This document shows, in pieces, positions 5,837-28,992 of a stretch of 35,317 nucleotides of DNA. Source of the DNA: a virus; IMG/VR virus record IMGVR_UViG_3300031885_002484, positions 1 through 35,317 of that record, one strand, 5' to 3'. Made by a program: the position numbers and the translations under genes. The notes under the pieces were generated by a model, which was not told the DNA's origin, ran no database searches, and worked only from the letters and a program-made list of their open reading frames with translations. Numbering within the stretch: position 1 is the stretch's first letter; each line of letters opens with the position of its first letter.

Positions 5837-6161
5837 TTCCTAACATATTCTGTAACATTGTTTTAAATGGAGCACTTATATTAGTTAATTCTTTTTTACA
5901 AATTTTACACATAAGCTTATCTTTTTCTAGAGATGGAACTCCTTCAGCCGAACAACTGCCACATTTAACAGAATAAGCATCATTTGTTTTTTCTCGTTTT
6001 GTGGTTTGTCCTAATGTTTTAAGAGTATTTTTAGTAAAATGGGTTACATTAGTAATCGTATTCCCGCATTCTGCACATAGTACTGTTCCGCTTAAAACTT
6101 CTAATTTAGCCGCTTGTGGCTTCATACATCCCTTGTTATCGCAATTAATTATTACCGGCAT
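5823..6161 (-). CDS. Small zinc-ribbon protein, 112 residues
   Basis: Two pairs of Cys motifs are visible: CDNKGC near the start with CAEC at about 29-32, and CGSC with CKIC near residues 70-95. Each set fits a zinc ribbon. The rest is short and basic, with a helical C-terminus (APFKTMLQNMLGNANK). The family is not recognised. The gene overlaps both neighbours, DnaJ upstream by 17 nt and the primase half downstream by 14 nt, so it is probably co-expressed with replication and chaperone genes. Nucleic-acid binding is likely from the ribbons alone; nothing more can be said. Confidence 0.75.
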   Translation of the reverse strand: MPVIINCDNKGCMKPQAAKLEVLSGTVLCAECGNTITNVTHFTKNTLKTLGQTTKREKTNDAYSVKCGSCSAEGVPSLEKDKLMCKICKKELTNISAPFKTMLQNMLGNANK

Positions 6162-7137
6162 TTTTGAGTGCTCCTACTAGTGTAGTTATATCAGCCGGAT
6201 AATCTACATTCAACTGTATAATATGTGCTCCATCAGTATTTGTAACGCCACATTTGGGAATACTAATCTGATCAGAGTGTTTGCTTTGTGGTTTTATGAT
6301 AATCTCTTTATTACCATATAAAGTTTCTACTTCTTTAGTGGTACCTTCTAAAGCCTCTAATAAAGAAATAGTTAAGTCTGAATATACATCTTTCTTATTT
6401 TTAAGAAACATATTTTTATATGGAATAACTTTTATATGTACAAATACATCAGTATAATTATCTCCCATAATGTGCCTACCGGCGTAATTACCCTCGCCGC
6501 CTAATCTTAAAGTTTCATTATTAATACTTCCTGCAGGAATATTGATTTTGCCTTCTCGTTTTTCATTTAAGACTTTTTTACCAGAACAAGCAACGCATTT
6601 ATCTGTTTTTGTATTTTTGCCAAAACATTTATCACAAGATGTTTGAAAAATCATACCTTTATTATTTAAAGTCTTTCTTCCAAACCCATCACATTGATCA
6701 CAATCATTTCCAATCTTCTTGCCGCCTGAACCTTGACATAATGAACATTTTAAATTTCTATTGTATATTACTTCTTTCGCACATCCTAATACTGATTCTT
6801 GAAATGAAATTTCTACAGTTATTTTAATATGCATTGGTGGTGGTAATTGATCTTCATCACCTCCAAAAATACCTCCGCCATTATTAAAAAATATATCTCC
6901 CAAATCAACAACAGTATTCCAAAATCCACCTTGCATATTTGGTTGATATTTATTGGGGTTAGCTCTATAATCTTTTACTAATTGATAAGCTTCATTAATT
7001 TGTTTAAATTTATTTGGATCTTTTTTATACAGATCTGGATGATAATCCTTGGCAAGATTTTTCCATTTCTTTTTTAAATCATCATCAGAAATATCTTGAG
7101 ATACATCAAGTATTTTATAAGCTTCTTGTGGAGTCAT
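6145..7137 (-). CDS. dnaJ: DnaJ-type (class A) co-chaperone
   Basis: The 330-residue protein has the J domain at 1-60 with His33-Pro34-Asp35 (DYHPDLYKK), the signature that stimulates the ATPase of Hsp70/DnaK. A short glycine-containing linker follows (about 80-95). The zinc domain has four CxxC pairs (131/134, 146/149, 168/171, 181/184), and beta-sheet substrate-binding domains follow (INIPAGSINNETLRLGGEGN). It is slightly shorter than cellular DnaJ (about 375 residues). No DnaK is in the window, so it probably recruits the host chaperone to phage replication or assembly proteins. It overlaps the RuvC gene by 23 nt and the zinc-ribbon gene by 17 nt. Confidence 0.95.
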   Translation of the reverse strand: MTPQEAYKILDVSQDISDDDLKKKWKNLAKDYHPDLYKKDPNKFKQINEAYQLVKDYRANPNKYQPNMQGGFWNTVVDLGDIFFNNGGGIFGGDEDQLPPPMHIKITVEISFQESVLGCAKEVIYNRNLKCSLCQGSGGKKIGNDCDQCDGFGRKTLNNKGMIFQTSCDKCFGKNTKTDKCVACSGKKVLNEKREGKINIPAGSINNETLRLGGEGNYAGRHIMGDNYTDVFVHIKVIPYKNMFLKNKKDVYSDLTISLLEALEGTTKEVETLYGNKEIIIKPQSKHSDQISIPKCGVTNTDGAHIIQLNVDYPADITTLVGALKNAGNN

Positions 7138-7702
7138 TTTCTTTCCTCTTGCGTTTCATTTCATCTAGTTTGTTTGTCATTTTATAACAACAAAACAACC
7201 CACAAGCAATGGCATCAGCCTCATCATACAATTCTGTACGAATGGCACCAGTTTTCTTGTACTGTCTCGGTAAATTAACACCTAATAGTTTTTCTACAAG
7301 CTCTGGTATCTCTTCTTTTTTTGGCAACTGTGCTGTTAATTTTAATCCGTGCCTAATTGCCATAACACTATATAGTTCTGGTATTTCTCCCAAATACTCA
7401 TAAGTGGTTAAACCAACTAAACGATTATATAATGCTAGTTTAATTATGGTGTTTGCTGAACTTACTTTTGGCATAAATTGCGCAATATCTTCTATTGCTA
7501 CTTTATCTGGCTTATGTTCTTGTAATAACTCTAATATATCTTCTTTTAGAGTTTTTAAATTCTCAAACAAATGTCCCGATTTAGATGGTTTATAAAACCC
7601 GGAATCAAGTAATTTTATATTGTTTGCTTTATCTATATCAAAGATAGCCCAACCAATTACAGAGCTAGATACGTCGAATGACATAACCTTATTGTATAAC
7701 AT
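7115..7702 (-). CDS. ruvC: RuvC-like Holliday-junction resolvase
   Basis: The 195-residue RNase H-fold protein has the four acidic positions of RuvC in order: Asp10 (MSFDVSSSVIGWA), Glu71 (VAIEDIAQF), and Asp160 with Asp163 (YDEADAIACGL). RuvC resolves four-way junctions formed by recombination, so a role in clearing branched phage DNA before packaging is expected. No RuvA or RuvB is nearby. The start is uncertain: the first ATG (7702) has no Shine-Dalgarno sequence, and the second (7684, MSFDV) has AAGG too close. The gene follows the ssb terminator, so it needs its own promoter or read-through. The downstream DnaJ gene overlaps its end. Confidence 0.88.
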   Translation of the reverse strand: MLYNKVMSFDVSSSVIGWAIFDIDKANNIKLLDSGFYKPSKSGHLFENLKTLKEDILELLQEHKPDKVAIEDIAQFMPKVSSANTIIKLALYNRLVGLTTYEYLGEIPELYSVMAIRHGLKLTAQLPKKEEIPELVEKLLGVNLPRQYKKTGAIRTELYDEADAIACGLFCCYKMTNKLDEMKRKRKENDSTRSL

Positions 7703-7725
7703 ATATACATATATACCGATACAAT

Positions 7726-7758
7726 AAAAAAAGAGGCGGATATTGCTATCCGCCTCTT
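7726..7758 (-). terminator. Strong Rho-independent terminator after the ssb gene
   Basis: A perfect 12-bp inverted repeat (plus-strand arms 7731-7742 and 7747-7758, loop TTGC) reads on the minus strand as AAGAGGCGGATA, a loop, TATCCGCCTCTT, and then a run of T. It begins about 20 bases past the ssb stop codon. This is the clearest terminator in the window. Confidence 0.93.
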
Positions 7759-7778
7759 CATATTCATCTAATTAAATA

Positions 7779-8489: not shown

Positions 8490-8534
8490 TTATTTTCCTA
8501 TTTTTCTACTATGATCTTTTATTATCGTAAGATA

Positions 8535-8563: not shown

Positions 8564-8572
8564 TCTTACTAT

Positions 8573-8854: not shown

Positions 8855-8881
8855 TTGATTATTTCCTATTATGTCTTAATA

Positions 8882-9193
8882 TTATTTTTGTTTAAAAATA
8901 AGGTTTTGTATACTTACGATTCGTTGCCAAGGCAACTGCACCTCTTTATATAACCTCTTGTCCGCAGAATTTATAATTTCTTGATAATTAGTGGTAAGTT
9001 TATTTACCTTTTCTTTTGTCTCGATCCCTACTATTGTAACAGAGTATGGGTGTTCATCGAGTTTTATTGCTAAAAATTGACGAGTAGCCATTGCGCTGGA
9101 CGGATCTTCAGTTGTTACCAAATAAACTGGTATAACTTTTTTTTGAGGATCATATGATCTGCTTCCTACTGGCGTAATATCAACGATAGGCAT
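8882..9193 (-). CDS. Hypothetical protein, 103 residues
   Basis: The protein starts MPIVDITPVG and alternates hydrophobic and polar residues (VIPVYLVTTED, FLAIKLDEHPYSVTIVGIET), which suggests a small alpha/beta fold. There is no Cys cluster or catalytic motif. The ATG shares one base with the stop of the recombinase gene (TAATG at 9191-9195), so it is translated from the same message and could be a recombination accessory protein. That link is by position only; I do not recognise a UvsY-like sequence. Confidence 0.7.
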   Translation of the reverse strand: MPIVDITPVGSRSYDPQKKVIPVYLVTTEDPSSAMATRQFLAIKLDEHPYSVTIVGIETKEKVNKLTTNYQEIINSADKRLYKEVQLPWQRIVSIQNLIFKQK

Positions 9194-10194
9194 TAATCAT
9201 CTCCATCTTCATCTTCTTTATCATCCCACCCTTTTATATCGTGTTCTTTTTTAATCTCATCTAAAAGATGAATGCCTGCGGCACTGACAACAATTTCTGT
9301 TTGCGCCAAACAATCAGCACCATCAAAAAGATGGTTCTTTTTAGTTCTAGCAACCGTCTGAATGCCGAATTTAATTTTCTCTCCACCTTTTACTCTTGTT
9401 AAATCTTTTTTACGAGTTAATTGAATAATAAGACTGGAAAGATATTGAAGGGTTTGTCCTCCTTTTTCTGTAACGCCTACACTTCCAATATTTGCATATA
9501 CTTGATTGATACATAATAAAGCGATTGTTGCTTCGCCATTATCTTTGGTAACAAACTCATTCATCATTCTATTGAATTTTCGAAGCGCCCACCCCGTTTC
9601 TTTTGCAGCAACACCCGGTTGTCTTGAAATATCCTCATCATCTTCATCACTCTCGGTAGAGTTAATACTAGCACCTACACTATCCCATACGACAAGTATT
9701 TTAGCACTATGATTTTGTTCTTTAATTGCTTTAATATAATATGCGACCGCTCTTGCTCCGCCAATAATATCATTAGTATCAACAACTAGTAATTGATCGG
9801 ATTTGCCGCCCATTTGTTTGTCAAAACGTTCCGCATTAAATTTACGTTCACTATCCCATAAGATAACAGATACGTCTTGGTCTTGTGCATCTTTCATAAA
9901 AGATAAAGCGTGTGTGGATTTGCCAGAATCTGGACGACCGGAGATTTGGACAATTTTACCGAATGGTATACCTCTTAATCTCGTGAGTTTAAACCAATGA
10001 TCTCCGCCTCTCCATAAAACGAAATCACTATCTTTAGTTGGTCTAATAATGGTGCTACCAGTAGATAATTGACGCTTTAATCCTTTATCTTCTTTGCCAT
10101 AAAATTCTTGTGCTCTTTTAACTATTTTATTAATATCTAATCCTGCAGACATTAACGCTGCTGGTTTTGTATTTTCTGTTTTTTCTTTTATCAT
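9193..10194 (-). CDS. RecA/UvsX-like recombinase
   Basis: The 333-residue protein has a RecA-fold core. Walker A is GRPDSGKS (86-93), and Walker B is ILVVWDSVGA with Asp171. A Gln-containing switch region follows (LLCINQVYANIGSVGVTEKG), then GGQTLQYLSSLIIQLTRK. It should polymerise on single-stranded DNA and drive strand exchange in recombination-dependent replication. AAGGA lies six bases before the ATG. The C-terminus is very acidic (WDDKEDEDGDD), like the regulatory tails of RecA. It is shorter than T4 UvsX (about 390 residues). The P-loop is closer to RecA than to T4 UvsX, so a RecA or a UvsX label would both be defensible. Confidence 0.92.
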   Translation of the reverse strand: MIKEKTENTKPAALMSAGLDINKIVKRAQEFYGKEDKGLKRQLSTGSTIIRPTKDSDFVLWRGGDHWFKLTRLRGIPFGKIVQISGRPDSGKSTHALSFMKDAQDQDVSVILWDSERKFNAERFDKQMGGKSDQLLVVDTNDIIGGARAVAYYIKAIKEQNHSAKILVVWDSVGASINSTESDEDDEDISRQPGVAAKETGWALRKFNRMMNEFVTKDNGEATIALLCINQVYANIGSVGVTEKGGQTLQYLSSLIIQLTRKKDLTRVKGGEKIKFGIQTVARTKKNHLFDGADCLAQTEIVVSAAGIHLLDEIKKEHDIKGWDDKEDEDGDD

Positions 10195-11689: not shown

Positions 11690-14600
11690 TTATATATCCA
11701 ACGAAAACGGATCTTCGTTCAAATCAACCAAACCTTCTGCAAATAATTGATCTTCTAATTCCTGAACTAAATCAGAGCTTTCCGTAATTACTGCATCTTT
11801 AATGGACATCTTTTTTGCTTTCAGATCTCTTGGTAAAGCTGGAGGTGGTATGAGTTCGTGTAATGATTCTAAAATAATACCCATTTCATTTTCATATAAA
11901 TTACACGTGCCTGTAAAATGAATAACATATCCTGGTTCAAAAGCTAATTTGCTTGTTTTTAATTTTTGTTTAATTTCATTCCAACGTTCTGGAAAAATAG
12001 TTAAACCGCATTGAACTCCAAATTCATCTTCTAACATAACTTTAGCCATTTCTTGTCCTAAAAATCGACTATTTTCCTTTTTAACTTTTAATTCAAATAC
12101 AGTTTTAATTTCAGCTTTAATAGATGGTATAGCTGTTTTATTTTTACTTAATTTAATAGTAGACATATTGGCGTGCATTTTATCTTGAAAGAATTTACCA
12201 AATGCATCTTTTTTAGTGCATACGAATGCTTCTCCCAGATAATGTTTTTCAAGAGCAAATAATTCTGGTTGAGACCAATCATTTTCCTGAATCCAAGGAA
12301 ACTTAAATGTTTCTGTTTTAGGATCGTGTTTTTTAAGCCACACTTGTAATTTTTTACGATAATCAGAACAATATAGATAAATTGATTTTCTTGGAATTCC
12401 AAAACTATCCATACATCCGCTTGCCGCTAATGCTTGTATTGCAGAAGATCTAACTTTACGAGTATCAGAGCGAAGCATAAAATCATCAAAATCTTTGAAG
12501 GGTCTTTTCTCTAAAATATCTTCAATGGCGTCTGCGCCTAAAAACTTTAAAGCATCTAATCCGGTAAGCAATGTATTACGATCTAATAATTGATAATCCA
12601 TTAGAGATTTATTTAAATTTGGTGGTAAGATTTTTACTTTTTGATTACGTAATTCCATTTTAGCGCGATCAATATTAGAAGCCGCATCTGGCGCATTAGA
12701 ACTATTATCTGCCATCAAATTTGCCAATAAAAATTCTATTGGATAATTTGCTTTTAAATAAGCAGTAATATATGAAATAAAAGAATACATTACAGCGTGT
12801 GATTTATTAAATGTGTAGCCTTGGAATTTATTAATTTCTTCATCCCAAATTCTAGCCGCCATTACACGTTCAATATTATTATTGCTAACGGCGCCTTCAA
12901 TAAATTCTTCTCTCAATTCTTTTACTTTGGCTGGATTTTTACCCTTGTCTTTAATTAATTTACGAATACGATCTGACTCATTGAGTGACCATCCAGCAAC
13001 GTCTTTTCCTAATTGAAGAATAGATTCGTCAAATAATCCGAATCCGTATGTTTTTTCGAAAGCAGTACGTAAAGATGGGTGTAAAAGTTTAAATTCTCTT
13101 TTACCTTCTCTGGTCTTAATAAAATCATCAACAATATTTTTGGCTGCTGGACGAGCTAACGTAGTAATAATTGCTAAATCTTCTATATTTTTTGGTTTGA
13201 TTTTTTTACACAAATCAATGGTGGCAGCGCTGGTTCCGAATTGAAAGACACCAAACGTATCTCCGCGTGAAATAAGATCATATGTTTTTTTATCATAATC
13301 TTCAAAATCAATATCTTCTAAAATAAGTTTTTTATCTCTATTTTTATTAATTAAATTAAGAGTAGTATCTATAAGGTCTAAAGTAGACAATCCTAGAACG
13401 TCTAATTTAAGAAGACCATTTTCTTCTGTATTATATTTTTCATATTCTAAAGCCTGATTATTATCTTTATCTTTTCTGATAGGAACCAATCCGGCAAGGG
13501 GGCGACGAGATATGACTATAGCGGCGGCGTGAGTTGAAAAATTTCTTACTTTACCCAAAATATTTGCATTTTGTGATAATTGTGGATATCTTTTAACATA
13601 CTCCATAAATAATGGACTTGTTTTAAGCTCATTAAACTCTATAGAATTTTTTACTTCTTTAGAAATAGAATCAGCAATTAAATTACCAATTCTAACAGCT
13701 TCTTTTCTATTACCGCCAAATTCCAAAGAACGCGCAATATCTCTCGTATAAACTTTAGGAGTAATTCTACTAAAGTTAGAAACGAAAGCCACCTTATCTG
13801 TTCCATATTTTTGTTGTAAATAATTAATAACTTCGCCTCGTCCCGAAGTGGCGATATCTTGATCTATATCTGGTGGACTTGAACGCTCTCTATTTTGAAA
13901 GCGTGCAAAAATCAACCCGTAGCGTAGAGGATCGGCTTTATGAATATCTAATAAATATGCAATAAGACATCCGCCAACGCTACCGCGCCCGGGTCCAATA
14001 CCAATACCTTTTTTACGTGCCCAATCAATATAATCAGCAACAATTAACATATAGGAACTAAAACCTTGAAAATCTAAAACTGACAATTCTTCTTCAATAC
14101 GTTCTATATATTCGCGCTCTTTAATAAGAGAGACTCTGTTTTTAATTTTACTATTGAATACTTGATAACACTTATAACGTAGATAGGCAGAATCTTCGGC
14201 TAGTGATTGGATATTAACTGTTTGTTCGTTAAGCCATTCTTGAAACTGCGTATAATCAGCTACTTCTTTGACTGGAAAGACTGGCAATTCCTTGCCGTTA
14301 GGATTAGAATACTTCGGATCAATCCATTCTGGTATTTCGCATTTATCAGCAAAATATAATGTGTTTGCGCAAATTTCTTCAGCAAATTTATCGCCAAAAT
14401 TACGGGCAAAAAAGGAACGAACTTCCTCATATGATTTTAAGTAAAAATCTGGTACCGCGTAACGTAAACGAGCATTTGAATACGTGGGTTGCATTGCGCC
14501 AATAGCTAACAAGACATCGTGCATTGACGCGTCTTCTTTTTTTAAATAATGAGTATTGGTGGTTGGAACAACCTTAAGTCCAAATTTCTCGGCTAATTTA

Positions 14601-15196
14601 ATCAAATGGTAATTAGTAAAAACTTGATTAATAGCATTATGATAAGGCGAAGCTGGTCTACTCAATGCATTAGGTTGAACTTCAATGCCCAAATTATCTT
14701 TACCGAAAATTCCAATTAATCTTTTTGCATCAGTTTCTGCTGCTTCAAAATTTCTAGCATTAATACTTTGCCCAAGAATACCATTACCACAAGAAGTTAA
14801 ACAAGTTACTCCTTTATAGCGTTCTTCTAGTAATTTCCAATCTATAACTGGTAAAACTTTACGTCCTGTAATAATTGGATTATCAAATCCAGTCCTATTA
14901 AGAGCTAATACATTTCTATATCCCTCGGCATTTTGAGCTAATAGAATAACGTGTCTCATCTTCTCTTCTTTTTTATGAACATCAGATAAGAAATAAAATT
15001 CAGCACCAACAATTAATTTAACTCCTGTTTCTTTAGATGCTTTATAAGCATCCCAAATCCCGGAAAAAGTCCCGTGGTCAGTTAAAGCCAATGCTGGTTG
15101 ATTAAGTTCTTTCGCTCTTACCAATAAATCTTTAGGTGAAGGTAGTGCGTCAAGAATAGAATAATATGAATGATTGTGTAAACTTACGAAACTCAT
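11690..15196 (-). CDS. dnaE: DNA polymerase III alpha subunit (C-family, DnaE type)
   Basis: The 1168-residue protein is close to the cellular length (about 1160). The N-terminal PHP domain has LHNHS, TDHG, GAEF, RHVILLA, LTSCGNG and TNTHY; compared with intact PHP sites, the Asp of the final D-x-H pair is Asn. The palm has GPGRGSVGGCLIAYLLDI, the catalytic PDIDQDI (Asp443, Asp445) and KLDVLGL (third Asp). Thumb, fingers and OB-type parts follow. QPELF at 976-980 resembles the internal beta-clamp-binding motif. It copies the phage genome, probably with the host clamp, since no clamp gene is seen here. AAAGGA lies seven bases before the ATG. Confidence 0.97.
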   Translation of the reverse strand: MSFVSLHNHSYYSILDALPSPKDLLVRAKELNQPALALTDHGTFSGIWDAYKASKETGVKLIVGAEFYFLSDVHKKEEKMRHVILLAQNAEGYRNVLALNRTGFDNPIITGRKVLPVIDWKLLEERYKGVTCLTSCGNGILGQSINARNFEAAETDAKRLIGIFGKDNLGIEVQPNALSRPASPYHNAINQVFTNYHLIKLAEKFGLKVVPTTNTHYLKKEDASMHDVLLAIGAMQPTYSNARLRYAVPDFYLKSYEEVRSFFARNFGDKFAEEICANTLYFADKCEIPEWIDPKYSNPNGKELPVFPVKEVADYTQFQEWLNEQTVNIQSLAEDSAYLRYKCYQVFNSKIKNRVSLIKEREYIERIEEELSVLDFQGFSSYMLIVADYIDWARKKGIGIGPGRGSVGGCLIAYLLDIHKADPLRYGLIFARFQNRERSSPPDIDQDIATSGRGEVINYLQQKYGTDKVAFVSNFSRITPKVYTRDIARSLEFGGNRKEAVRIGNLIADSISKEVKNSIEFNELKTSPLFMEYVKRYPQLSQNANILGKVRNFSTHAAAIVISRRPLAGLVPIRKDKDNNQALEYEKYNTEENGLLKLDVLGLSTLDLIDTTLNLINKNRDKKLILEDIDFEDYDKKTYDLISRGDTFGVFQFGTSAATIDLCKKIKPKNIEDLAIITTLARPAAKNIVDDFIKTREGKREFKLLHPSLRTAFEKTYGFGLFDESILQLGKDVAGWSLNESDRIRKLIKDKGKNPAKVKELREEFIEGAVSNNNIERVMAARIWDEEINKFQGYTFNKSHAVMYSFISYITAYLKANYPIEFLLANLMADNSSNAPDAASNIDRAKMELRNQKVKILPPNLNKSLMDYQLLDRNTLLTGLDALKFLGADAIEDILEKRPFKDFDDFMLRSDTRKVRSSAIQALAASGCMDSFGIPRKSIYLYCSDYRKKLQVWLKKHDPKTETFKFPWIQENDWSQPELFALEKHYLGEAFVCTKKDAFGKFFQDKMHANMSTIKLSKNKTAIPSIKAEIKTVFELKVKKENSRFLGQEMAKVMLEDEFGVQCGLTIFPERWNEIKQKLKTSKLAFEPGYVIHFTGTCNLYENEMGIILESLHELIPPPALPRDLKAKKMSIKDAVITESSDLVQELEDQLFAEGLVDLNEDPFSLDI

Positions 15197-15276: not shown

Positions 15277-15933
15277 TTACATTATTAAAATAGAATTTTT
15301 AACTAAAATTTCTTTTAAATATTTTTCATCTAAATCTTCCATATTATCATAAATATTTTTTATAGATTTAAATCTACTTTTCCAGAAATCTTTTTTTTCC
15401 GAATAGCGTGTGAGGAAATGTTTTAATTCTCCCTCGTTTAGTTCCTTATGTCTATACAGCATATGTGAAATTAATTTTATATCTTCCCAATATTCTATTA
15501 ATATATCGCCAGTGTCATTTTGAACTTGTTTTTTAAATAAAAATCTTGCTTTGCCTGGTTCTGCCAAATTATATGTGTGAATTAATTTTGCAGCATCTTG
15601 AATATCATCAGATGAACCTATACGCAAATGCATTGGAAATTTATCAGAACCACAAATGTCCTGATAATATAATTTCTCTCCAACCATTCCTGCATATAAC
15701 GTTTGTACTTCATAAATTAATAATATTTTAGCTAATAATTTATTTTCTATATTATCAGGATCATATACTTCATACAAAGTATTACCGTGTTCATATTTAT
15801 CTGACATAACAGAAACGTGATACACACGCATAAAATTATACAAACCGCAAATAGTATGCGCAGCCTCGTGCCAACACATTGCGATTAATTCATAGTCGCC
15901 GGCTTGTTTATTAATGATACTGGTATTAGACAT
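15277..15933 (-). CDS. Stand-alone FtsH-type (M41-like) zinc peptidase domain
   Basis: The 218-residue protein carries HEAAH at 22-26 (WHEAAHTICGLY), the zinc motif of M41 peptidases. An AGMVGEKLYY segment corresponds to the GGRxAEE-like stretch of FtsH. GSSDDIQDAAKLI has Asp110 where FtsH has its third zinc ligand. The AAA+ ATPase module and membrane segments that precede this domain in FtsH are absent. It could act as an energy-independent protease, partner a host AAA protein, or interfere with host FtsH. The start at 15933 shares one base with the stop of the gene upstream. The fold call is good; the activity is inferred. Confidence 0.75.
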   Translation of the reverse strand: MSNTSIINKQAGDYELIAMCWHEAAHTICGLYNFMRVYHVSVMSDKYEHGNTLYEVYDPDNIENKLLAKILLIYEVQTLYAGMVGEKLYYQDICGSDKFPMHLRIGSSDDIQDAAKLIHTYNLAEPGKARFLFKKQVQNDTGDILIEYWEDIKLISHMLYRHKELNEGELKHFLTRYSEKKDFWKSRFKSIKNIYDNMEDLDEKYLKEILVKNSILIM

Positions 15934-16214
15934 TATAAATACGCTAAAATAGTTCTTTCAAGTAGTTTAGCACTTTCTTCGCATTTGGCATTTTTACATT
16001 TAATAGTGAATTGATTCATTCCAAAAACGCCGGTTGCCGTTAATCCTTTATCTTCAATATAAATCATACCTGCATCAATATAAGTTTTGACAAAAGAGAA
16101 GCCGGCTCGTTGAAAAATTTCCAAATGATCTTTTTTAATTGGAGTATTAAGCTTCCAAATCATTTGTTTTTTTCCACAACAAGAAACGATTTCTCTTTTG
16201 TCAATTTGAATCAA
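15933..16214 (-). CDS. Hypothetical protein, 93 residues, probable TTG start
   Basis: The frame is open further upstream to 16250, but the best start is a TTG at 16214. It has GGAG seven bases before it and overlaps the stop of the upstream gene as TTGA. The product would begin MIQIDKREIVSCCGKK. Two Cys at the start (CCGKK) and two near the end (CKNAKC) could bind zinc. The middle (FQRAGFSFVKTYIDAGMIYI) looks alpha/beta. The family is unknown. It is coupled to the peptidase-domain gene downstream by a one-base overlap. Confidence 0.62.
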   Translation of the reverse strand: MIQIDKREIVSCCGKKQMIWKLNTPIKKDHLEIFQRAGFSFVKTYIDAGMIYIEDKGLTATGVFGMNQFTIKCKNAKCEESAKLLERTILAYL

Positions 16215-16501
16215 ATACGTACTCCGCGACTTTCTAACATAAATAAACAATATTTAATTTTAGCCGTTTCAGTACCTTTAGCTTCTGCAAATGGAGCTGT
16301 AGCTTCTTTAAGATCTTCTTTCATTTTAGTAATCTTTTCATTAGCATCTCGTTCATTTTCAATTTCGTAGAGATTACGTTCTGATGAAAGAATGAATTTC
16401 TTAATTTCTTCAGTATCTGCTCCCTCCACAGTATCTACATATCCTGCAGCATATTCATTCAATTTTTTTAAATATTTTTCTGGAAAATGTTTATCTTTCA
16501 T
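16211..16501 (-). CDS. Conserved-looking hypothetical phage protein, 96 residues
   Basis: The protein is highly charged and probably all helical: FPEKYLKKLNEYAAGYVDTV, NLYEIENERDANEKITKMKE, then AKIKYCLFMLESRGV. The pattern of an acidic helical pair and a C-terminal AKIKYCLFxLExxG segment recalls small proteins of large phages, but I cannot attach a function. The start at 16501 overlaps the zinc-finger gene upstream by 11 nt. Confidence 0.7.
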   Translation of the reverse strand: MKDKHFPEKYLKKLNEYAAGYVDTVEGADTEEIKKFILSSERNLYEIENERDANEKITKMKEDLKEATAPFAEAKGTETAKIKYCLFMLESRGVRI

Positions 16502-16718
16502 TTTTTAATCTTTCTTTTAATTCTTGTTTTTTGTTGTTTATTTGTTCTTGTGTCAATTTTGGTGTTGATTTATTATTTTTAGATTCACATATAATACATT
16601 TATTAGTATCAATTGGATCACGAACGATAATTGAAGATCTTCCAACAATAAATAATGCCGAGCAGTCTTCGCATTTATAATGCCAATCGCATCCTTTGCT
16701 AAAAATATTTATCAACAT
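16491..16718 (-). CDS. Small zinc-finger protein, 75 residues
   Basis: Two CxxC pairs (YKCEDCSALF and NKCIICESK) about 20 residues apart form a probable zinc ribbon. The C-terminal third is a charged helix (TQEQINNKKQELKERLKNER). The ATG directly abuts the stop of the trigger-factor gene (16719-16721). The function is unknown; nucleic-acid or protein binding is the simplest guess. Confidence 0.7.
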   Translation of the reverse strand: MLINIFSKGCDWHYKCEDCSALFIVGRSSIIVRDPIDTNKCIICESKNNKSTPKLTQEQINNKKQELKERLKNER

Positions 16719-17981
16719 TTATTCAACTATAGTTGAATTCTTTGCAATAAATTCCATTGTAAAATCATCTCTAACAGTTGACACTAATGCATTCATATAT
16801 CCAGATTTATGAATGGTTTCTAATATTTCTTCGTCTGATTTTCCTATCATACCTGGCATAGTAGCATAATCTTTAACATTAGATTTAATCTGTGTCATTA
16901 CTTCTTCGTCAGAAGATTGAGCCTCTGGTTCAACTTCTCTAATTTTATCTAAAATTATAGAAAGTTTCACATTTTTAGTTGCAAATGTAAGAAAATTACT
17001 TTTATTTTCATCTGCTAATTGATCCCAATTTTGTCCGTATTGTCTACATAACATTTTGGCTTCAAAAGTAGCTAACCAATCTGGTACAACAAATTCGTGA
17101 TTTTGAACTAATCTACTAGCTATTTGCTCTGCTATATATTTCTTTTCAAGCTCTTGAACTCTTCTTGACGCCATACCTTGAGTTAAAGAAATCATTTCAG
17201 CCATATCTTTAGCTCCTATTTTAAAAGCAAGAGCATCATCAAGCGCGGCAGGTATAGATTTAGATGCCATAGCAAGTTCTACTTGAAATTTAACGGTTTT
17301 ACCCATTAATTCTATAAATGAAGATGAATCGGGTATTAATGTAGTAAATTCTCTTTTTTCACCAACTTTCATACCTAATAAGTTTTCATTAAAAGATTCA
17401 ACAGATGATTTGCCAATTATAAGAAGCTCTCCTTCAACTTGAGTAACCGGCTCTTCTTGTCCTTCAACATATCCGGTATAATTAACTATCGCAGTATCAT
17501 TATTTTGAATAAAATCATTGTCTGCGAACGGAATAGTTTCTCCATTACGACTTCTTAATTCTTGTAGAATTTTTTCTGCCATTTCTACAGAATCAGGAGT
17601 ATTTCCTTTAGGAATATTAAATCCTTTATATTCTTTTAATTCTACTTCTGGAACTTTATTAACACAAAAATCACATTTGAATTTAGAACCATCTAAATGT
17701 AAAGACAAGAATTGAGGTTGTCCAAATGGTCTAATATTTTTTTCTGCAACGACAATTTGAAAAGCACTTTGTGCTAATTCGCTTTTCATCACTTCATCGA
17801 TTTTATTTTTGAAGTGATGTTTAATGGCGGTTAAAGTTGCTTTGCCTGGTCTAAAGCCTGGAACTTGTCCTGCTTTAAAGTACTGAACAACTTCCGATCT
17901 TTTAGCTTCTACTTGTTTATCATCCGCTTCAAATTTAACATTTAGTCTACAGTACTCTATTTCATTTATTTCTATAAGCAT
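16719..17981 (-). CDS. tig: Trigger factor (ribosome-associated chaperone, peptidyl-prolyl isomerase)
   Basis: The protein is 420 residues, close to the cellular length (432 in E. coli), and all three domains are visible. The N-terminal ribosome-binding domain has the signature loop GFRPGKA (42-48) that docks at the exit tunnel on L23. Residues about 145-245 are an FKBP-type isomerase domain (NNDTAIVNYTGYVEGQ, then LLGMKVGEKREF). The helical C-terminal arms (about 250-420) cradle the nascent chain. GAGG precedes the ATG by five bases. It presumably folds phage proteins as they leave the ribosome, in competition or cooperation with host trigger factor. A complete copy in a phage is unusual. 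It lies 9 nt downstream of the Cas4-like nuclease gene. Confidence 0.93.
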   Translation of the reverse strand: MLIEINEIEYCRLNVKFEADDKQVEAKRSEVVQYFKAGQVPGFRPGKATLTAIKHHFKNKIDEVMKSELAQSAFQIVVAEKNIRPFGQPQFLSLHLDGSKFKCDFCVNKVPEVELKEYKGFNIPKGNTPDSVEMAEKILQELRSRNGETIPFADNDFIQNNDTAIVNYTGYVEGQEEPVTQVEGELLIIGKSSVESFNENLLGMKVGEKREFTTLIPDSSSFIELMGKTVKFQVELAMASKSIPAALDDALAFKIGAKDMAEMISLTQGMASRRVQELEKKYIAEQIASRLVQNHEFVVPDWLATFEAKMLCRQYGQNWDQLADENKSNFLTFATKNVKLSIILDKIREVEPEAQSSDEEVMTQIKSNVKDYATMPGMIGKSDEEILETIHKSGYMNALVSTVRDDFTMEFIAKNSTIVE

Positions 17982-18819: not shown

Positions 18820-19812
18820 TTAAGTCAGCACGCTATATCTAAATAAGTTCCAACTGAATACTTTTCCAACACCGCCATTATTACGTCCAAATACCATTCC
18901 GGATAAATTACCCGGATCAGTTTGCTTGGGCTCATAAGGAGATGAAGATATAATCCACCTATTAGTAGAACTATCTCTATAATATGAAGTAATCATTTGT
19001 GTGCGAGGATTATAATATGATCGTAAAAAAGAACCAGTTATAGTTGGAGATTCTAACCCACTTGCATATAATGCAGAACCATCTTTACTGACTTCCAAAT
19101 TTTCCAATGAGAAAGATTGGGGATTAATTTGTGGAGGATTACTAGGGTCCTCTGTAGTAATGTCTTGAAAAATTACCATAGCTTTAGAATTAAATAATGG
19201 ACTTTGTCGTGTAGATTCTTCTGGATTATATTCTAAAGCACTTCTACGTCCAATAATAGTAACTTTGCCTGGGAGATTTCCAACATTAGATGTTGTTTTA
19301 TTTAAATAGTCTGTAGTAGAATAAATATTTAAATAATCATCAAATTTTTCATTTGCAGCAACAGGATCGCCATTAGCGTCATAACCGTATGTAATTTCTG
19401 GCAACGTAGGATCGTCAACCGTAACACCCGCGCCGCCTGGATTTAAATAATTTACCGTAGGAGATGGGGAGTTACTGCCAAAAGGATATTGAGAATAAGG
19501 AGCATTATTAGAATCATCTGATAAAACGGAATGAGGGAGACGGGCATTGTGTAAAATATCAGTTGAATATATTGTTGTAACAATAGCAGAACTATCTACA
19601 CCATTTGTAGCAAATGCCTTTAATATAAATTCTAATACATCTGTTGGTAATGTAATTGCTGAAACATATACTTCCGAAGCCGTAGTAGGTTCCGTACCAT
19701 CTATTGTATAAAAGATGGTCGCCGGCACATTAGCTGATAATGCTACCGTCGTAGGAAATCCCGCCACAATTTGGTCCGAAGATTCAGTTAAAGAAATCGA
19801 AATTACAACCAT
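18820..19812 (-). CDS. Protein with chitobiase C-terminal-like beta-sandwich domain, possible virion part
   Basis: The 330-residue protein has at residues about 10-85 the pattern of the chitobiase/beta-hexosaminidase C-terminal domain (FYTIDGTEPTTASEVYVSAI, continuing into LKAFATNGVDSS). This domain is common in phage and secreted adhesion proteins. The rest is rich in Ser, Thr, Asn, Pro and Tyr and looks beta-rich (RSYYNPRTQMITSYYRDSST near 270). There is no signal peptide. It probably sits on the virion surface or in a fibre or decoration. It lies among replication genes, next to a dNMP kinase, which is an unusual place for a virion gene. No glycosidase active site is seen. Confidence 0.72.
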   Translation of the reverse strand: MVVISISLTESSDQIVAGFPTTVALSANVPATIFYTIDGTEPTTASEVYVSAITLPTDVLEFILKAFATNGVDSSAIVTTIYSTDILHNARLPHSVLSDDSNNAPYSQYPFGSNSPSPTVNYLNPGGAGVTVDDPTLPEITYGYDANGDPVAANEKFDDYLNIYSTTDYLNKTTSNVGNLPGKVTIIGRRSALEYNPEESTRQSPLFNSKAMVIFQDITTEDPSNPPQINPQSFSLENLEVSKDGSALYASGLESPTITGSFLRSYYNPRTQMITSYYRDSSTNRWIISSSPYEPKQTDPGNLSGMVFGRNNGGVGKVFSWNLFRYSVLT

Positions 19813-22930: not shown

Positions 22931-24115
22931 TTATTTAATATTTTCTTTGTATTCTTGTACAATTAATGAAGCCAAATTTACAAATTCTTCTCGTAAATTT
23001 TCTTCAACTAATGAGGCGTAAGTTTTGATAGCTGATAATTCGGTAACAGTATTATCTATAGTTTCATTAATTTGTTTTTTTAATGAAGTAAACGTGCGTT
23101 CTTCTGAAATTTTCGAAACGTGAAATGCTCCAGCTTTATAAAGAGCCTTCTCTATTATCCCGCGGTCTATAGCATATGAAGCATTACTTGGAAGTATAAT
23201 GGAAACTTTTACAATAGAATTATTCATTTTACCCAGCTTTGCTAACTCTTCTTCGATGAAGGTCGTTGCATTTGCTTCCATTTCTGGCAATTGAAGAACT
23301 ATATTTTGTAATTGTCTAGTAGGTAATTGAATATATTTCAATTTTTCATTAGTGGATTTAGGATCAATTAATGCAATATATTTCTTATGATCCATCTCGC
23401 CAAAATCAGAAATATCCATACTGCCAATATGCCCTATATATGGTTCTTCTGACATTACTTGAAATTTATGTACGTGTCCCATTAAAACATAATCATATCC
23501 TGTAAACATATCTAAAGGACAAAATAATTCATTAGATAATTCATCTAATTCGTATCCAACTGGTATAGCGCCTTCTAGCGCCAAATGTCCAATTAATACT
23601 TTAAGACAATCTTTACCTATCGATTTCATTTCGTAAGGTAATTGAGATTTTAGTATATTAAGAGCTGCACTATTTTCATCAGTATTAAAAGAGCGTCTGT
23701 CTCTAAATGGCATAAATGTAATGCCGACATTATCAAGATTCAATGTAGTTATTTTTTTATAAACAAAAATATTTTCTATATCTGTAGATGATACAATATC
23801 TAATGGAGATGTAGTAAATTGTCCGCTACGCAAAATATCGTGATTACCAACAATAATATGTACAGAGATGTTATAATCTGAACATTTCTGTAGCCACTCT
23901 AAAAATAAAACTACAAGGCTATAATGTGGTTTGGGTTCTTCAAAGACATCGCCAGTTAATACAATATGTTGTACATTATATTCTACAGCTTGCTCATAAA
24001 CCCAATCAAGTAAATTAACTTGATCAGTAATACGACTATTTATAGCTGAACCGACAGATTGTTTTCCTAAATTTTGAGAGCGTCCAAGATGCACATCGCC
24101 AAGAATTAATATCAT
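22931..24115 (-). CDS. sbcD: SbcD/Mre11-like nuclease (T4 gp47 type)
   Basis: The 394-residue protein has the calcineurin-like phosphoesterase motifs in order: ILGDVHLGRS, VLTGDVFEEP, IVGNHDILR, IGHLALEG and MGHVHKFQ. These ligate the two metals of the nuclease site. A capping region and a charged C-terminal helix (about 330-394) that would contact SbcC follow. The start overlaps the stop of the CHC2 primase gene by 4 nt. The pairing with the SbcC gene directly downstream confirms the identification. Confidence 0.95.
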   Translation of the reverse strand: MILILGDVHLGRSQNLGKQSVGSAINSRITDQVNLLDWVYEQAVEYNVQHIVLTGDVFEEPKPHYSLVVLFLEWLQKCSDYNISVHIIVGNHDILRSGQFTTSPLDIVSSTDIENIFVYKKITTLNLDNVGITFMPFRDRRSFNTDENSAALNILKSQLPYEMKSIGKDCLKVLIGHLALEGAIPVGYELDELSNELFCPLDMFTGYDYVLMGHVHKFQVMSEEPYIGHIGSMDISDFGEMDHKKYIALIDPKSTNEKLKYIQLPTRQLQNIVLQLPEMEANATTFIEEELAKLGKMNNSIVKVSIILPSNASYAIDRGIIEKALYKAGAFHVSKISEERTFTSLKKQINETIDNTVTELSAIKTYASLVEENLREEFVNLASLIVQEYKENIK

Positions 24116-24675
24116 TTATAATCTTCTAATTTCTTTTTTAAATTTTTATAAAGCATATTCAATCCTCCCGGATCTAATACACGTCTATTTCTTATTTCAT
24201 CGAAAGCTGAAGATACGTATTCTGCGTAATCTAACGCCTTACTATCATCTCTGTGTTGCATAATAAAGTCTCGCACCAAATGTGAGAACTCCAAATATAT
24301 TCTATAATGATTAACAGATCGTTCATTCATATTTGATGTATTAATCTGATAATTATGAATTATTGATAATGCAGCATTATACTTATTGGTTTCATAATTA
24401 TCGTATGCCGCGATAAACTCGACCGGACCCCCTCCAGCCTTGCATCCAAAACAATAAAAACTATTTGTATCTGGATAATAATAAAAAGAGCCGGAACGTT
24501 CATTGCCACCTTTATGAAAAGAAAAGGGACAACAAGCTTTACGGCTATAAGTATCTATATTTATATTATGTGTATGAAGAATATCTAATAAGTTGGCAGC
24601 ATTAGCTTTATCAATGGTTTGTTTAACTACATCGACTTCAACATATGCTCCAGTGTTTCTATTTTTACTGAACAT
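24112..24675 (-). CDS. CHC2 zinc-finger primase half
   Basis: The 187-residue protein has the DnaG zinc-ribbon pattern: CPFSFHKGGNERSGSF (Cys49, His54) followed by FYCFGCKAGGGPVEFIAA (Cys75, Cys78). This is the DNA-recognition domain of bacterial and phage primases. The Toprim catalytic part is absent; the rest (about 95-187) is helical. The catalytic half is encoded at 5069-5836, about 18 kb away. The two could work as one primase in trans. The gene is followed by SbcD with a 4-nt overlap and is overlapped at its start by a possible 54-residue gene. Confidence 0.88.
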   Translation of the reverse strand: MFSKNRNTGAYVEVDVVKQTIDKANAANLLDILHTHNINIDTYSRKACCPFSFHKGGNERSGSFYYYPDTNSFYCFGCKAGGGPVEFIAAYDNYETNKYNAALSIIHNYQINTSNMNERSVNHYRIYLEFSHLVRDFIMQHRDDSKALDYAEYVSSAFDEIRNRRVLDPGGLNMLYKNLKKKLEDYK

Positions 24676-25716: not shown

Positions 25717-25738
25717 AATACCTCATTTATGCTTTATA

Positions 25739-26263
25739 TCAATGACAGGGGCATTTTTTGTATTTTTTTCCAGAGCCACAAATACACAAGTCATTCGGTC
25801 GAGTTTTAACATTTAACGGATTTTTAACTATAGCCCTATCAAAAAATAATATACCGTCTAAATGATCTAATTCGTGTTGAATAGCTACTGCCATCAGTCC
25901 AGTTGCTACAAATTCGTGAGGAGCTATGGCATTATTAATTACGTGAATTTCTTCATATCGCATAGTATCATTTAATTGACCATCAAATGATAAACAACCT
26001 TCTTCTTTAAAAAGAGTTGGAGAATATCCTTTTTTAATTTTAGCGTTTATTAAATTAACAGATAAATTATTAGAACTATTAATTCTTACAATAGCCGCTT
26101 TTTTATTAATTCCGATTTGAGGGCAGGCAAGTCCAATACCCGGTCTTCCCATTAACATAGAATAGTTTAAGCCTTTTTCAAGTAATTTAATTAATGAAGC
26201 AGCCTCTTCGAGAGAGACCTCGTCATTTTTAGCTCTTAAAATCTTTTCATCACTTATTATCAT
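25739..26263 (-). CDS. def: Peptide deformylase with C-terminal SEC-C zinc motif
   Basis: The 174-residue product starts at the ATG at 26263 (GGA seven bases upstream); an in-frame GTG at 26281 is less likely because it overlaps the previous gene. All three deformylase motifs are present: GIGLACPQ (42-49), EGCLS (88-92, metal ligand Cys90) and QHELDHLDG (His130, Glu131, His134). It removes the formyl group from new N-termini at the ribosome. After about residue 150 the usual C-terminal helix is replaced by CICGSGKKYKKCPCH (Cys160, 162, 171, 173/His174), a SEC-C motif like the zinc tail of SecA. That tail can contact ribosomes and partner proteins. This fusion is unusual. Confidence 0.93.
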   Translation of the reverse strand: MIISDEKILRAKNDEVSLEEAASLIKLLEKGLNYSMLMGRPGIGLACPQIGINKKAAIVRINSSNNLSVNLINAKIKKGYSPTLFKEEGCLSFDGQLNDTMRYEEIHVINNAIAPHEFVATGLMAVAIQHELDHLDGILFFDRAIVKNPLNVKTRPNDLCICGSGKKYKKCPCH

Positions 26264-26264
26264 C

Positions 26265-26471
26265 TTAATTTCCGCAACCACTGCAACCAGACTTAGGTCT
26301 TTGTTTAGTTGTTATACTATTCAATCTCTTTAAACAAATAGCACACAAATTTTCAGTTTTTGAACAATTATCACATACTACTGGAAGATTAAAATATATC
26401 ATACTTTTACATCTTAAACAAATTCTTTTAGAATTAATTAACGCTAATTTAGTACAATTATTACATAACAT
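26265..26471 (-). CDS. Small multi-zinc-finger protein, 68 residues
   Basis: Five Cys pairs are packed into 68 residues: CNNC, CLRC, CDNC, CAIC and CSGC, so at least two zinc ribbons are likely. It is basic and otherwise plain. The stop ends one base before the deformylase ATG, so the two are co-translated. It might be an adaptor for ribosomes or RNA, but only the zinc binding is supported. Confidence 0.72.
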   Translation of the reverse strand: MLCNNCTKLALINSKRICLRCKSMIYFNLPVVCDNCSKTENLCAICLKRLNSITTKQRPKSGCSGCGN

Positions 26472-26507
26472 TTAAAGCCATAATTTGCTATTAGTATAAA
26501 GGTTTAT

Positions 26508-26672: not shown

Positions 26673-27155
26673 CCAGTTATCGTGCCATTCTATTTCTCCT
26701 GGGAAATAACATAAATATTTATTAGGGGCAGTAGGTGCTTTTTTCAATGTCATACCAGCTTGTTCTGGCGTTCTATTTCTTTTTTTTCTATTACAAGAAA
26801 TGCAGGCTGTTACACAATTGGTAAAAGAATTAGCTCCTCCGACACTTTTAGGTATCACGTGATCTATGGTCAAGCTGCTATGTTTATATTTTTTATAACA
26901 ATAACAGCAAGTATATTCATCTCTACGTAATACTAATTTACGAGAAAATGTTAATTTAGTGGGACGTAAAGCGACGTGATATTTCATCTTCAATGTAGCT
27001 GGATGTTCTATATAACCACTACTTGAACAAATTTTTCTTCCATTCCATCCTGAAATAACTTCAACCTTACCTTTAAATAAAAGTTTAACTGCCTTGCGTT
27101 CTGTTATAAAAGCAATAATTTGAAAATCATCATTTAAGAGAAGAGTTTTAATCAC
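26652..27155 (-). CDS. HNH endonuclease of the cellular single-domain type
   Basis: The 167-residue protein has an N-terminal segment (LLLNDDFQIIAFITERKAVK continuing into LLFKGKVEVI) and a C-terminal HNH core. The core has Cys83/Cys86 (YTCCYCYKK), LTIDHVIPKSVGGANSF with Asp98-His99, NCVTACISCNRKKRNRTPEQ, and a GMTLKKAP end. This arrangement is that of a widespread bacterial HNH family with unknown role, not the NUMOD-bearing homing type elsewhere in this window. The likely start is GTG (27155), overlapping the upstream gene by 8 nt. It may be a homing relative, a DNA-processing enzyme or a defence factor. Confidence 0.85.
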   Translation of the reverse strand: MIKTLLLNDDFQIIAFITERKAVKLLFKGKVEVISGWNGRKICSSSGYIEHPATLKMKYHVALRPTKLTFSRKLVLRRDEYTCCYCYKKYKHSSLTIDHVIPKSVGGANSFTNCVTACISCNRKKRNRTPEQAGMTLKKAPTAPNKYLCYFPGEIEWHDNWLFFIGH

Positions 27156-27474
27156 TTTTATTCAATGTTTTATTAATTTTTTCTAATAAATCTTCTATGG
27201 CGAGAATTTTCATTTCTCGCAAATTTGTATCAGCATTATCTGCTAATTTAGCATATTCTTTTTTAATTTTTAAATGTTTAGAAAATGTATCTATTCCAAA
27301 ACTTTTAATAGCTGGATCTGACCAAGAACCAATCCACTCCTCCATTGATTTAGGAATTTGGGGTAATGAAGATATTTCTACAGCAATTTGTTTTAATCTT
27401 GTATTAACTTGTGATTGATTACTAGAGTATAATTTAAATAAATCTAGACGAGACGGTTTAAGATATCCATCCAT
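27148..27474 (-). CDS. Hypothetical protein, 108 residues
   Basis: A mostly helical, charged protein (MDGYLKPSRLDLFKLYSSNQ, continuing SQVNTRLKQIAVEI; then IDTFSKHLKIKKEYAKLADN). There is no motif, Cys cluster or membrane segment. The stop overlaps the start of the HNH gene. It may be part of the same unit as the two possible structural genes upstream (27485-28568). Confidence 0.68.
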   Translation of the reverse strand: MDGYLKPSRLDLFKLYSSNQSQVNTRLKQIAVEISSLPQIPKSMEEWIGSWSDPAIKSFGIDTFSKHLKIKKEYAKLADNADTNLREMKILAIEDLLEKINKTLNKSD

Positions 27475-27484
27475 TACTAAAACC

Positions 27485-28132
27485 TTATCTTTTAATAATT
27501 GCTATAGGAAGTTGTAAAGATTTCATTTGTGGAGTAATCTCTATTTCTTGTAAAGCTTCAATTTTATTTAAAGTAGTTGAATCTATTATTTTAGATATAT
27601 GTATGGAATACTTACCTACTGGTAAATAGGTTTGCCATTTACCAACAGCATTTGTTTTTGATTTATTAACAACTTCATTAGTTTCTAAATTAGTAACTAA
27701 TACATCTGCCATAAATAAATCTTTACCTTTATTATCAGTGATACGTTGTCCTACTGGAATTTTTGATTTTTTTTCATCCGCACGTGCGTGTATGGGTGCG
27801 GGTAATTCGGAAGTTGGCATTACTTCTGGTTTTGTAATAATTTGTCTTTTATTAACAATGGGTGAATTTTTATTCACTTCTAATAATACCGGTTGTGAAT
27901 TTTCACGTTTATTATCTGTATCAGCTGTAACTGAAGGCATTTTACCAGACATTACTGGTTCTACAGTTTTAGCTAATAATTTATTTAAATTACCCAATAT
28001 AAGTTTATTATTCATATCATTAGCGGCAACGGTTTTAGTAAGCGTTAGTATTTTTTCTTCGAGGGAAAGCAATATGTCACTAACTTTACGAACGCTAGTT
28101 GTAGCTGTTAGATTTTTATCATCATTACTCAT
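27485..28132 (-). CDS. Protein with C-terminal carboxypeptidase-regulatory-like beta domain
   Basis: The 215-residue protein has a helical N-terminus (VSDILLSLEEKILTLTKTVA, about 15-60). A linker rich in Pro, Lys and Ser follows (about 60-130). Residues about 130-210 resemble a carboxypeptidase regulatory-like or Ig-like sandwich (ADVLVTNLETNEVVNKSKTN, AVGKWQTYLPVGKYSIHISK). Such domains are common in phage baseplate and surface proteins. A structural role is plausible but unproven. It overlaps the 147-residue gene upstream by 8 nt. Confidence 0.68.
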   Translation of the reverse strand: MSNDDKNLTATTSVRKVSDILLSLEEKILTLTKTVAANDMNNKLILGNLNKLLAKTVEPVMSGKMPSVTADTDNKRENSQPVLLEVNKNSPIVNKRQIITKPEVMPTSELPAPIHARADEKKSKIPVGQRITDNKGKDLFMADVLVTNLETNEVVNKSKTNAVGKWQTYLPVGKYSIHISKIIDSTTLNKIEALQEIEITPQMKSLQLPIAIIKR

Positions 28133-28568
28133 CTAAAAATACTCCTATTTTTAATCCAATTCTTTTTAGAATTATTACATCATTAATTTGAGTTTTTTTA
28201 TCTAAAAATTCAGGATGCTCTCTATATAAAATAGATTTTGCTTCAGATAAGATATAATCGTGACTACCGTGAGAAATAACTTTCCCTGACACCATTAACA
28301 CAAATTCACCAATATCTGGCGACTCTGTATTTTTACTAGACATCTTCATACCAAAACCGTAGCTTACTTGTTCATTATTGTCCAATATATGAGATTCAAT
28401 TGTAGAATCTGAAATTGGATTAACCAATTCCCCATCAAGAGTTGAAAAATCTTGTAGAATAGGATTCACATTCAAACGTTTATATTCTGGAACATAAGGA
28501 GTTTGAACTGTATCTGTATTTCTATTTGGATTTTTTATTATATCATCATCTTGATGGGGAGTAGTCAT
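28125..28568 (-). CDS. Hypothetical protein, 147 residues
   Basis: I place the start at 28568 (MTTPHQDDDIIKN) because AAGAAGG lies five to six bases before it, within the end of the bS21 gene. The frame is open to 28595, but that would overlap bS21 more and has no Shine-Dalgarno sequence. The N-terminal 40 residues are polar. The C-terminal 90 alternate beta-like and helical segments (GEFVLMVSGKVISHGSHDYI, ILSEAKSILYREHPEFLDKK). The family is unknown. Confidence 0.7.
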   Translation of the reverse strand: MTTPHQDDDIIKNPNRNTDTVQTPYVPEYKRLNVNPILQDFSTLDGELVNPISDSTIESHILDNNEQVSYGFGMKMSSKNTESPDIGEFVLMVSGKVISHGSHDYILSEAKSILYREHPEFLDKKTQINDVIILKRIGLKIGVFLDE

Positions 28569-28569
28569 T

Positions 28570-28992
28570 TTAGCCTTCTTTACGAGAACGCACATCTTTC
28601 AATTGTTTCTTTAGGTCTTTCAACTTCTGCTTTTTGAGCAATTCTTTTTCAAATTCTCCAGAAAGCATTTTAGCTTTTTTAGCATCCAGCTCCAATCGTT
28701 TTTGCTTCATTTCGTTGCGTTTTCTACGACGCTTGACTGAAGGTTTTTCGAAAGTTTGTTTTTGCTTATATAGTGACAGAATTCTTTCTTTCTGTACTAT
28801 TGCACGGAATGCTTTAAAAGCTTTATCGAAATTATGTCCGTATACCTTCACCTCAAGGGGAAGGAAATCTTTTAAATAAGAATCATCTAAATGATTGGCT
28901 TGCGTCCTTACAATATCACCTCCTCTCAATTGGACCTGCTCACCACGCAGAAAGGAGTTTATTAACTCGTCTTTATTCATATTGTTTTTCAT
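28570..28992 (-). CDS. rpsU: Ribosomal protein bS21, extended at both ends
   Basis: The 140-residue protein contains at residues 48-99 a bS21 core: VKVYGHNFDKAFKAFRAIVQ, then a helix, then FEKPSVKRRRKRNEMKQKR. This matches the DVALRRFKR and FYEKPTxxRKRAK parts of cellular bS21. Residues 1-45 and the Lys-rich tail (about 100-140) are additions, since cellular bS21 is only about 70 residues. bS21 sits on the small subunit near the mRNA-16S anti-Shine-Dalgarno helix, so a phage copy could bias initiation. bS21 is known from other large phages. No Shine-Dalgarno sequence precedes either possible start (Met1 or Met5). A strong promoter lies upstream. Confidence 0.88.
   Translation of the reverse strand: MKNNMNKDELINSFLRGEQVQLRGGDIVRTQANHLDDSYLKDFLPLEVKVYGHNFDKAFKAFRAIVQKERILSLYKQKQTFEKPSVKRRRKRNEMKQKRLELDAKKAKMLSGEFEKELLKKQKLKDLKKQLKDVRSRKEG

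Follow-up and report, generated by a model that had tools for sequence, protein, structure and literature searches.

Ribosome-linked protein-biogenesis genes within a conserved replication block of a huge-phage lineage

Identification of the five genes

The window considered in the present work, i.e., the whole stretch of DNA that was analysed, corresponds to the entire virus record IMGVR_UViG_3300031885_002484 of IMG/VR (35,317 bases), on which nearly every gene of the open reading frame (ORF) list lies on the minus strand. An earlier note on this DNA had proposed that it harbors genes for the ribosomal protein bS21, a peptide deformylase (PDF), a trigger factor (TF), an FtsH-like peptidase domain and a DnaJ; all five are indeed present, on the minus strand, with the coordinates reported below. 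The proteins of the window were scanned with the Pfam and NCBIfam profiles and the matches were judged against the family cut-offs; all the functional statements made here derive from homology, motifs and gene context.

The best-supported of the five identifications is that of the full-length TF (16719..17981, minus). Its Trigger_N (PF05697), FKBP_C (the peptidyl-prolyl isomerase domain, PF00254) and Trigger_C (PF05698) domains each exceed the Pfam cut-off, and the NCBIfam equivalog "tig" (TIGR00115) matches near the full length of the protein with a score of 187.7, against a cut-off of 180.2. The TF profile was aligned to the Escherichia coli TF (1w26), residues 13-412; furthermore, the predicted model (predicted local distance difference test, pLDDT, 86) has the ribosome-bound E. 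coli TF 2vrh as its best structural match. In the alignment, the docking motif GFRPGKA of the window TF, of the GFRxGxxP type, lies opposite the E. coli GFRKGK, and G[FY]R is present in all 16 of the aligned TFs.

The deformylase (25739..26263, minus) matches PF01327 with 100.4 bits and carries the C-terminal tail CICGSGKKYKKCPCH, a SEC-C motif (PF02810, 27.4 bits, over the cut-off) of the SecA metal-binding-domain (MBD) type. The ATG at 26263 fits the relatives better as a start than the longer GTG form at 26281. The motifs GxGxAxxQ, EGCLS and QHExxHL are seen in the relatives; they read GIGLACPQ, EGCLS and QHELDHL in the window, in agreement with the deformylase signatures GxGxAAxQ, EGCLS and QHExDHL, and one relative (G005) has HELGH. 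The published motif of the SecA MBD is CXCX8C(H/C), and this domain sediments together with ribosomes when fused to SUMO (PMC6620043); the window tail contains the motif, as CICGSGKKYKKC. By analogy, the tail of the phage enzyme may bind the ribosome, the binding of SecB, the other known role of the SEC-C/SecA metal-binding domain, being an alternative. Among the deformylases of the lineage, 27 out of 34 have the tail, a few with a longer spacing. Moreover, a 68-residue zinc-ribbon-like ORF with CxxC pairs adjoins the deformylase gene (26265..26471, minus); among the mapped relatives, it is present only where the deformylase is tailed.

The bS21 protein (28570..28992, minus; 140 residues) is over the cut-off for both PF01165 (48.6 bits) and TIGR00030 (44.5 bits). 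It can be aligned with the bS21 chains of solved ribosomes, its EKPSxKxRxKxxE core is kept in 10 sequences, and it extends beyond the core that it has in common with bacterial bS21 with about 45 residues at the N-terminal and a basic region at the C-terminal. The bS21 of another phage enters E. coli 70S ribosomes (PMC6375957).

The type A DnaJ (6145..7137, minus) is over the cut-off for PF00226 (49.7 bits) and for PF01556 (DnaJ_C, 83.3 bits), and possesses the HPD motif, four CxxC zinc motifs and the DnaJ_C region expected for this type. The HPD motif is found in 22 out of 22 DnaJ sequences, while the CxxCxGxG zinc repeats are mostly lost from those of G017 and G018. No Hsp70/DnaK was found in the 16 relatives of 200-481 kb; thus, the phage DnaJ presumably partners the host DnaK.

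The weakest identification is that of the lone M41 (FtsH-type) peptidase domain (15277..15933, minus; 218 residues), whose PF01434 match (20.9 bits) is under the cut-off of 29.9 and for which the NCBIfam scan gave no match. Its predicted model (pLDDT 86.8, best E-value 5e-5) retrieved FtsH, AFG3L2, FtsHi and YME1 chains only among the top matches. The zinc ligands typical of FtsH, HExxH and a distal Asp, are present: the motif reads HEAAH, with Asp at position 110, and H22, E23, H26 and D110 are invariant in nine sequences. The protein lacks both the AAA ATPase domain that FtsH has fused to M41 and a transmembrane part. Despite the M41 fold and the zinc ligands, the protein is not an FtsH, and one subclade of the lineage lacks it. 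Between TF and M41, the window has three small ORFs (h105, h96 and h75; 15933..16718, minus), and according to the ORF list all of these genes form a single chain in which neighbors overlap or have no gap between them; h96 and h105 are conserved across the block in the mapped relatives, and M41 abuts h105 in eight out of nine, downstream of TF. The BFVD database holds a close viral M41 relative (A0A6J5RJ76, 38% identity). How an FtsH-type peptidase works without a motor is the question that such a lone domain raises.

Co-occurrence and gene order in related viral records

The RecA-like recombinase of the window (9193..10194, minus; PF00154, 52.6 bits) was used as bait and retrieved 24 IMG/VR relatives, i.e., 25 RecA-found records with the window; an alignment of TFs retrieved 27 further records. 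The resulting sample includes 52 related viral records, the largest of 481 kb; several of them are near-duplicates of one another, so that the independent number is lower than the record counts, and sampling by RecA and TF similarity is blind to more distant phages. The 35-kb window is a piece of the genome of this huge-phage lineage. A Terminase_6N match with E<=0.001 was found in eight of the 16 relatives of 200-481 kb (three over the cut-off, in frames of about 630 residues), which is in keeping with tailed phages (Caudoviricetes); the window itself has no large terminase, and no tRNAs or Rfam families were found in it.

The earlier note had made its reading depend on the co-occurrence of the five families in relatives, and such a co-occurrence does exist: counting from the match tables, bS21, deformylase, TF and DnaJ are jointly present in 33 of the 52 records, 27 of which also have M41. 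The RecA-found records represent a fair test, since they were picked by none of the five genes; 18 of the 25 harbor TF, 12 bS21, 12 the deformylase and all 25 DnaJ. Among the 27 TF-found records, the deformylase and bS21 are present in 24 and 23, respectively, and DnaJ in 25. Where absences were mapped, the contig stops within the block, short of the missing gene; for G007 and some short contigs, absence was judged only by length and match position. In every record covering the locus, bS21, deformylase, TF and DnaJ were found, M41 being the exception, and the co-occurrence of the four genes is far above chance.

In all the mapped records, these four genes are on the same strand and follow one another in a constant order, with a bS21-to-DnaJ distance of 22-39 kb. 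The common order is TopA, bS21, deformylase, primase zinc half, SbcD, SbcC, nucleotide kinase, Exo and TF, followed by two small genes, M41 (if present), DnaE, RecA, an ssb-like gene, RuvC, DnaJ, a zinc ribbon and the primase catalytic half. The order over the full interval comes from the window and nine relatives, and the partial maps of the remaining records agree with it; single genes (e.g., TopA or the kinase) went undetected in a few of the order-mapped relatives. The five genes are therefore scattered through a block of replication and recombination functions that comprises about 33 conserved genes. Values of dN/dS (nonsynonymous over synonymous rate) computed against two relatives are 0.12-0.35 for deformylase, TF, M41 and DnaJ; they were obtained with the simple Nei-Gojobori method at a dS of about 1 and are approximate, and they point to purifying selection on these four genes.

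The relatives of the TF surfaced with alignment-based scans, the scan of the viral data with the single sequence giving no match. In a phylogenetic tree, the phage TFs form one clade away from four bacterial TFs (support 0.97), a small bacterial sample; this separate clade is consistent with an old single acquisition. The genome scan for TF kin yielded one close match only, on a 7-kb contig of a metagenome-assembled genome binned as Thioploca sp. (JAAUSR010000128.1, L228). This TF groups within the phage clade, and kinship of the TF was rejected as a guide to the host; the contig may represent phage DNA assigned to the wrong bin or, alternatively, a clue to the host. Two other kinds of candidates were discarded: the TF of the Acinetobacter "phage" MD-2021a (L014, CAKLQH020000005.1) lies on a piece of bacterial chromosome with leuA, tig, clpP and clpX, and the other matches in the annotated phage collection, with 22-26% identity and mostly from unannotated records, were not counted.

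As for the other genes of the block, topoisomerase I (TopA; 29108..30904, minus; PF01131, 361 bits) is the conserved upstream neighbor of bS21, and two genes of no assigned function lie closely 3' of the latter. The DNA polymerase III alpha subunit (DnaE; 11690..15196, minus), recognized by a profile match, anchors the block. The DnaG primase is split: its zinc-binding half is a gene of its own (24112..24675, minus; PF01807, 44 bits) and its catalytic half (DNAG_N and Toprim; 5069..5836, minus; profile match) lies 18 kb apart, an arrangement that the mapped relatives share. The DnaJ start is overlapped by the gene for a RuvC-like nuclease (7115..7702, minus; PF02075, 33 bits) and its stop by that for a small zinc-ribbon-like protein with CxxC pairs (5823..6161, minus), conserved in the block.

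Some further features were observed. The region 3205-4134 encodes a 309-residue ORF in which an intein splicing domain (PF14890) follows a helix-turn-helix part; its counterpart in most relatives has about 145-165 residues, suggesting that the intein occurs only in the copies of the window and G006. GIY-YIG homing-endonuclease-like genes are located on both sides of it (2363-3190 and 4136-4972). A CHB_HEX_C_1/Fn3_assoc protein (18820-19812) is conserved within the block in the relatives covering it. A DUF192 protein (33296-33694), encoded upstream of TopA and close to a HerA/FtsK-like ATPase, is also present in G009, G011, G017 and G024.

Possible roles of the set and alternative explanations

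The explanation that we favor, with slightly better than even confidence, is that a huge tailed-phage lineage bears its own ribosome-linked protein-biogenesis factors within a vertically inherited replication core block. Three of the products, bS21, deformylase and TF, fit an action on the ribosome, given the docking motif, the active-site residues and a tail of the ribosome-binding type. The phage bS21 would take the place of the host protein, which is exchangeable, on the platform of the 30S subunit and bias initiation. Formylated phage chains, emerging in large numbers from the tunnel, would be processed at its exit by the deformylase; the SecA-type tail that this enzyme has in the main subclade would tether it to the ribosome, replacing the C-terminal helix of bacterial deformylases. 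The TF would dock at the exit via its GFRxGK loop and take over first folding. DnaJ would recruit the host DnaK, probably for replication/recombination complexes, being coupled to RuvC and the primase, and possibly for assembly. Lastly, the M41 domain might serve as a motor-less accessory peptidase that trims or removes particular proteins.

A more ambitious version depicts a phage-specific biogenesis environment, in which an altered bS21 marks the 30S subunit, the SecA-tailed deformylase and the phage TF displace their host counterparts, and a motor-less M41 coupled to TF provides quality control; we hold this to be doubtful.

Several observations weigh against the idea of a dedicated set. 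The linkage is not translation-specific, as about 28 other conserved genes, mostly of replication or unknown function, are interspersed with the five; because of this, linkage alone is no proof of a dedicated "kit". DnaJ abuts or overlaps RuvC in 18 out of 20 cases and the zinc ribbon in 18 out of 22, and the ribbon abuts the primase in 15 out of 22; this tight chain ties DnaJ to recombination and priming, and a replication role for DnaJ is at least as likely as one on nascent proteins. One subclade has neither M41 nor the SEC-C tail, hence neither is essential to the scheme; only G046 has the tail and no M41. Moreover, a strict regular expression for the docking motif missed seven of 40 TF copies, and the dS of bS21 is saturated, which makes its dN/dS unmeasurable.

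The earlier note had inferred a coordinated takeover of initiation, N-terminal processing, folding and quality control. Judging from sequence, this "kit" reading seems plausible for bS21, deformylase and TF, which fit action on the ribosome, weaker for M41, which is no FtsH, and doubtful for DnaJ, embedded in the RuvC/primase chain. We infer a ribosome trio accompanied by two proteostasis genes, rather than a proven five-part pathway.

The alternative that survives best, short of even probability and still to be taken seriously, is that there is no dedicated kit: the replication core would be inherited as a unit, each proteostasis gene having its own task and co-occurrence reflecting common descent. 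According to this explanation, DnaJ and the host DnaK would remodel replication/recombination complexes, as DnaJ and DnaK remodel the P-DnaB complex for phage lambda. The gene chain around DnaJ speaks for it, and so does the sharing of the block with DnaE, RecA, SbcCD, TopA and the split primase. Furthermore, some huge phages in which no TF was found likewise encode a DnaJ. However, bS21, PDF and TF are without a known replication role, yet they are kept together over a deep divergence, TF identity falling to about 30% across the lineage.

Somewhat less probable, and on the unlikely side, is that the factors chiefly stand in for host proteins that become limiting, or are lost to shut-off or degradation, in a long infection, the ribosomes not being redirected to phage mRNA. 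All five genes are homologous to host functions and their catalytic parts are ordinary-looking; furthermore, it was earlier proposed that phage PDFs sustain the translation of needed proteins (PMC7162821). Nevertheless, the N- and C-terminal extensions of bS21 and the tail added to the PDF suggest more than replacement.

A predominantly late function of TF, DnaJ and M41, in assembling virions and maturing proteins rather than on nascent chains, we regard as distinctly improbable: for the DNAJ proteins of jumbo phages, a role in folding and assembly via the host HSP70 has been proposed (PMC7824862), and G006 has a terminase match about 7 kb past the block, but the genes are located within the replication block, not among virion genes, and the TF docking loop is retained. 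Finally, a set countering host defenses that act on ribosomes or sense via chaperones (e.g., a DnaJ-dependent NLR-like system), as proposed for the heat-shock proteins of another phage lineage (PMC12619734), is very unlikely, there being no direct sequence evidence for it in the window, where no defense gene model search was made.

Comparison with known systems

It is known that huge phages may carry bS21, deformylase and DnaJ, the last being reported from some jumbo phages (PMC7824862, PMC12619734). Members of the TF and M41 families were in public data beforehand (PHROG family phrog_26774, which matches the TF, and BFVD), with their role undescribed, and one survey of viruses states that an analogue of trigger factor was not found (PMC8407431). 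Among the open-licence papers searched, none describes a trigger factor from a phage, a PDF/SEC-C fusion or the whole gene set; an earlier mention elsewhere is possible.

The bS21-bearing Bacteroidetes phages (Chen et al. 2022, PMC9723584) resemble this lineage in being large (up to 331 kb), in having their own bS21 and, in some cases, chaperones and proteases, and in the proposed ribosome substitution. In those phages, however, the bS21 gene is encoded on the reverse strand, has terminase, capsid and portal genes as neighbors and is tied to late expression, whereas here it shares the strand of a replication block; in addition, the terms "Trigger factor" and "deformylase" are absent from that paper, while this lineage has both genes. 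Here, the start sites have a Shine-Dalgarno-like purine peak, with G peaking from -8 to -11, and Shine-Dalgarno-like words occur at about two to three times the shuffled rate; for these reasons, a bS21 setting of the Bacteroidetes type is not favored.

Similarly, the model of translation interception by huge phages (Al-Shayeb et al. 2020, PMC7162821) includes bS21, deformylase, other translation genes and the idea of a takeover; its main text names no chaperone or trigger factor and describes no fixed block with all these genes, such as the one found here. Three records of uncultured huge phages (LR745206, LR756502 and LR756511) possess bS21 and DnaJ and gave no TF match. Moraphages (PMC12619734) are likewise large aquatic phages with DnaJ, but some of them encode DnaK, which was found in none of the large relatives of the window, and their description makes no mention of S21, deformylase or trigger factor.

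With other viral peptide deformylases, the enzyme has in common the catalytic domain; the SEC-C tail occurs in most members of this lineage and in roughly a third of 80 IMG/VR viral deformylases (25 by regular expression and a few more by eye), a sample that includes some from this lineage. SEC-C tails are found on more distant viral deformylases too (L247-L269), and some others end with a strongly basic stretch (e.g., L262), possibly an alternative ribosome-targeting tail. The SEC-C tail would represent a simple and testable route for steering a viral enzyme to the ribosome. FtsH, an AAA-M41 protease, shares with the phage M41 protein the fold, HExxH and the distal Asp, and differs from it in possessing the AAA ATPase and the transmembrane part.

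Overall, the set suggests phage-supplied machinery for starting, trimming and folding the phage's own proteins on host ribosomes. Earlier discussions of phage translation takeover dealt with individual genes; the present lineage as a whole retains initiation-to-folding factors, including TF, in one conserved block.

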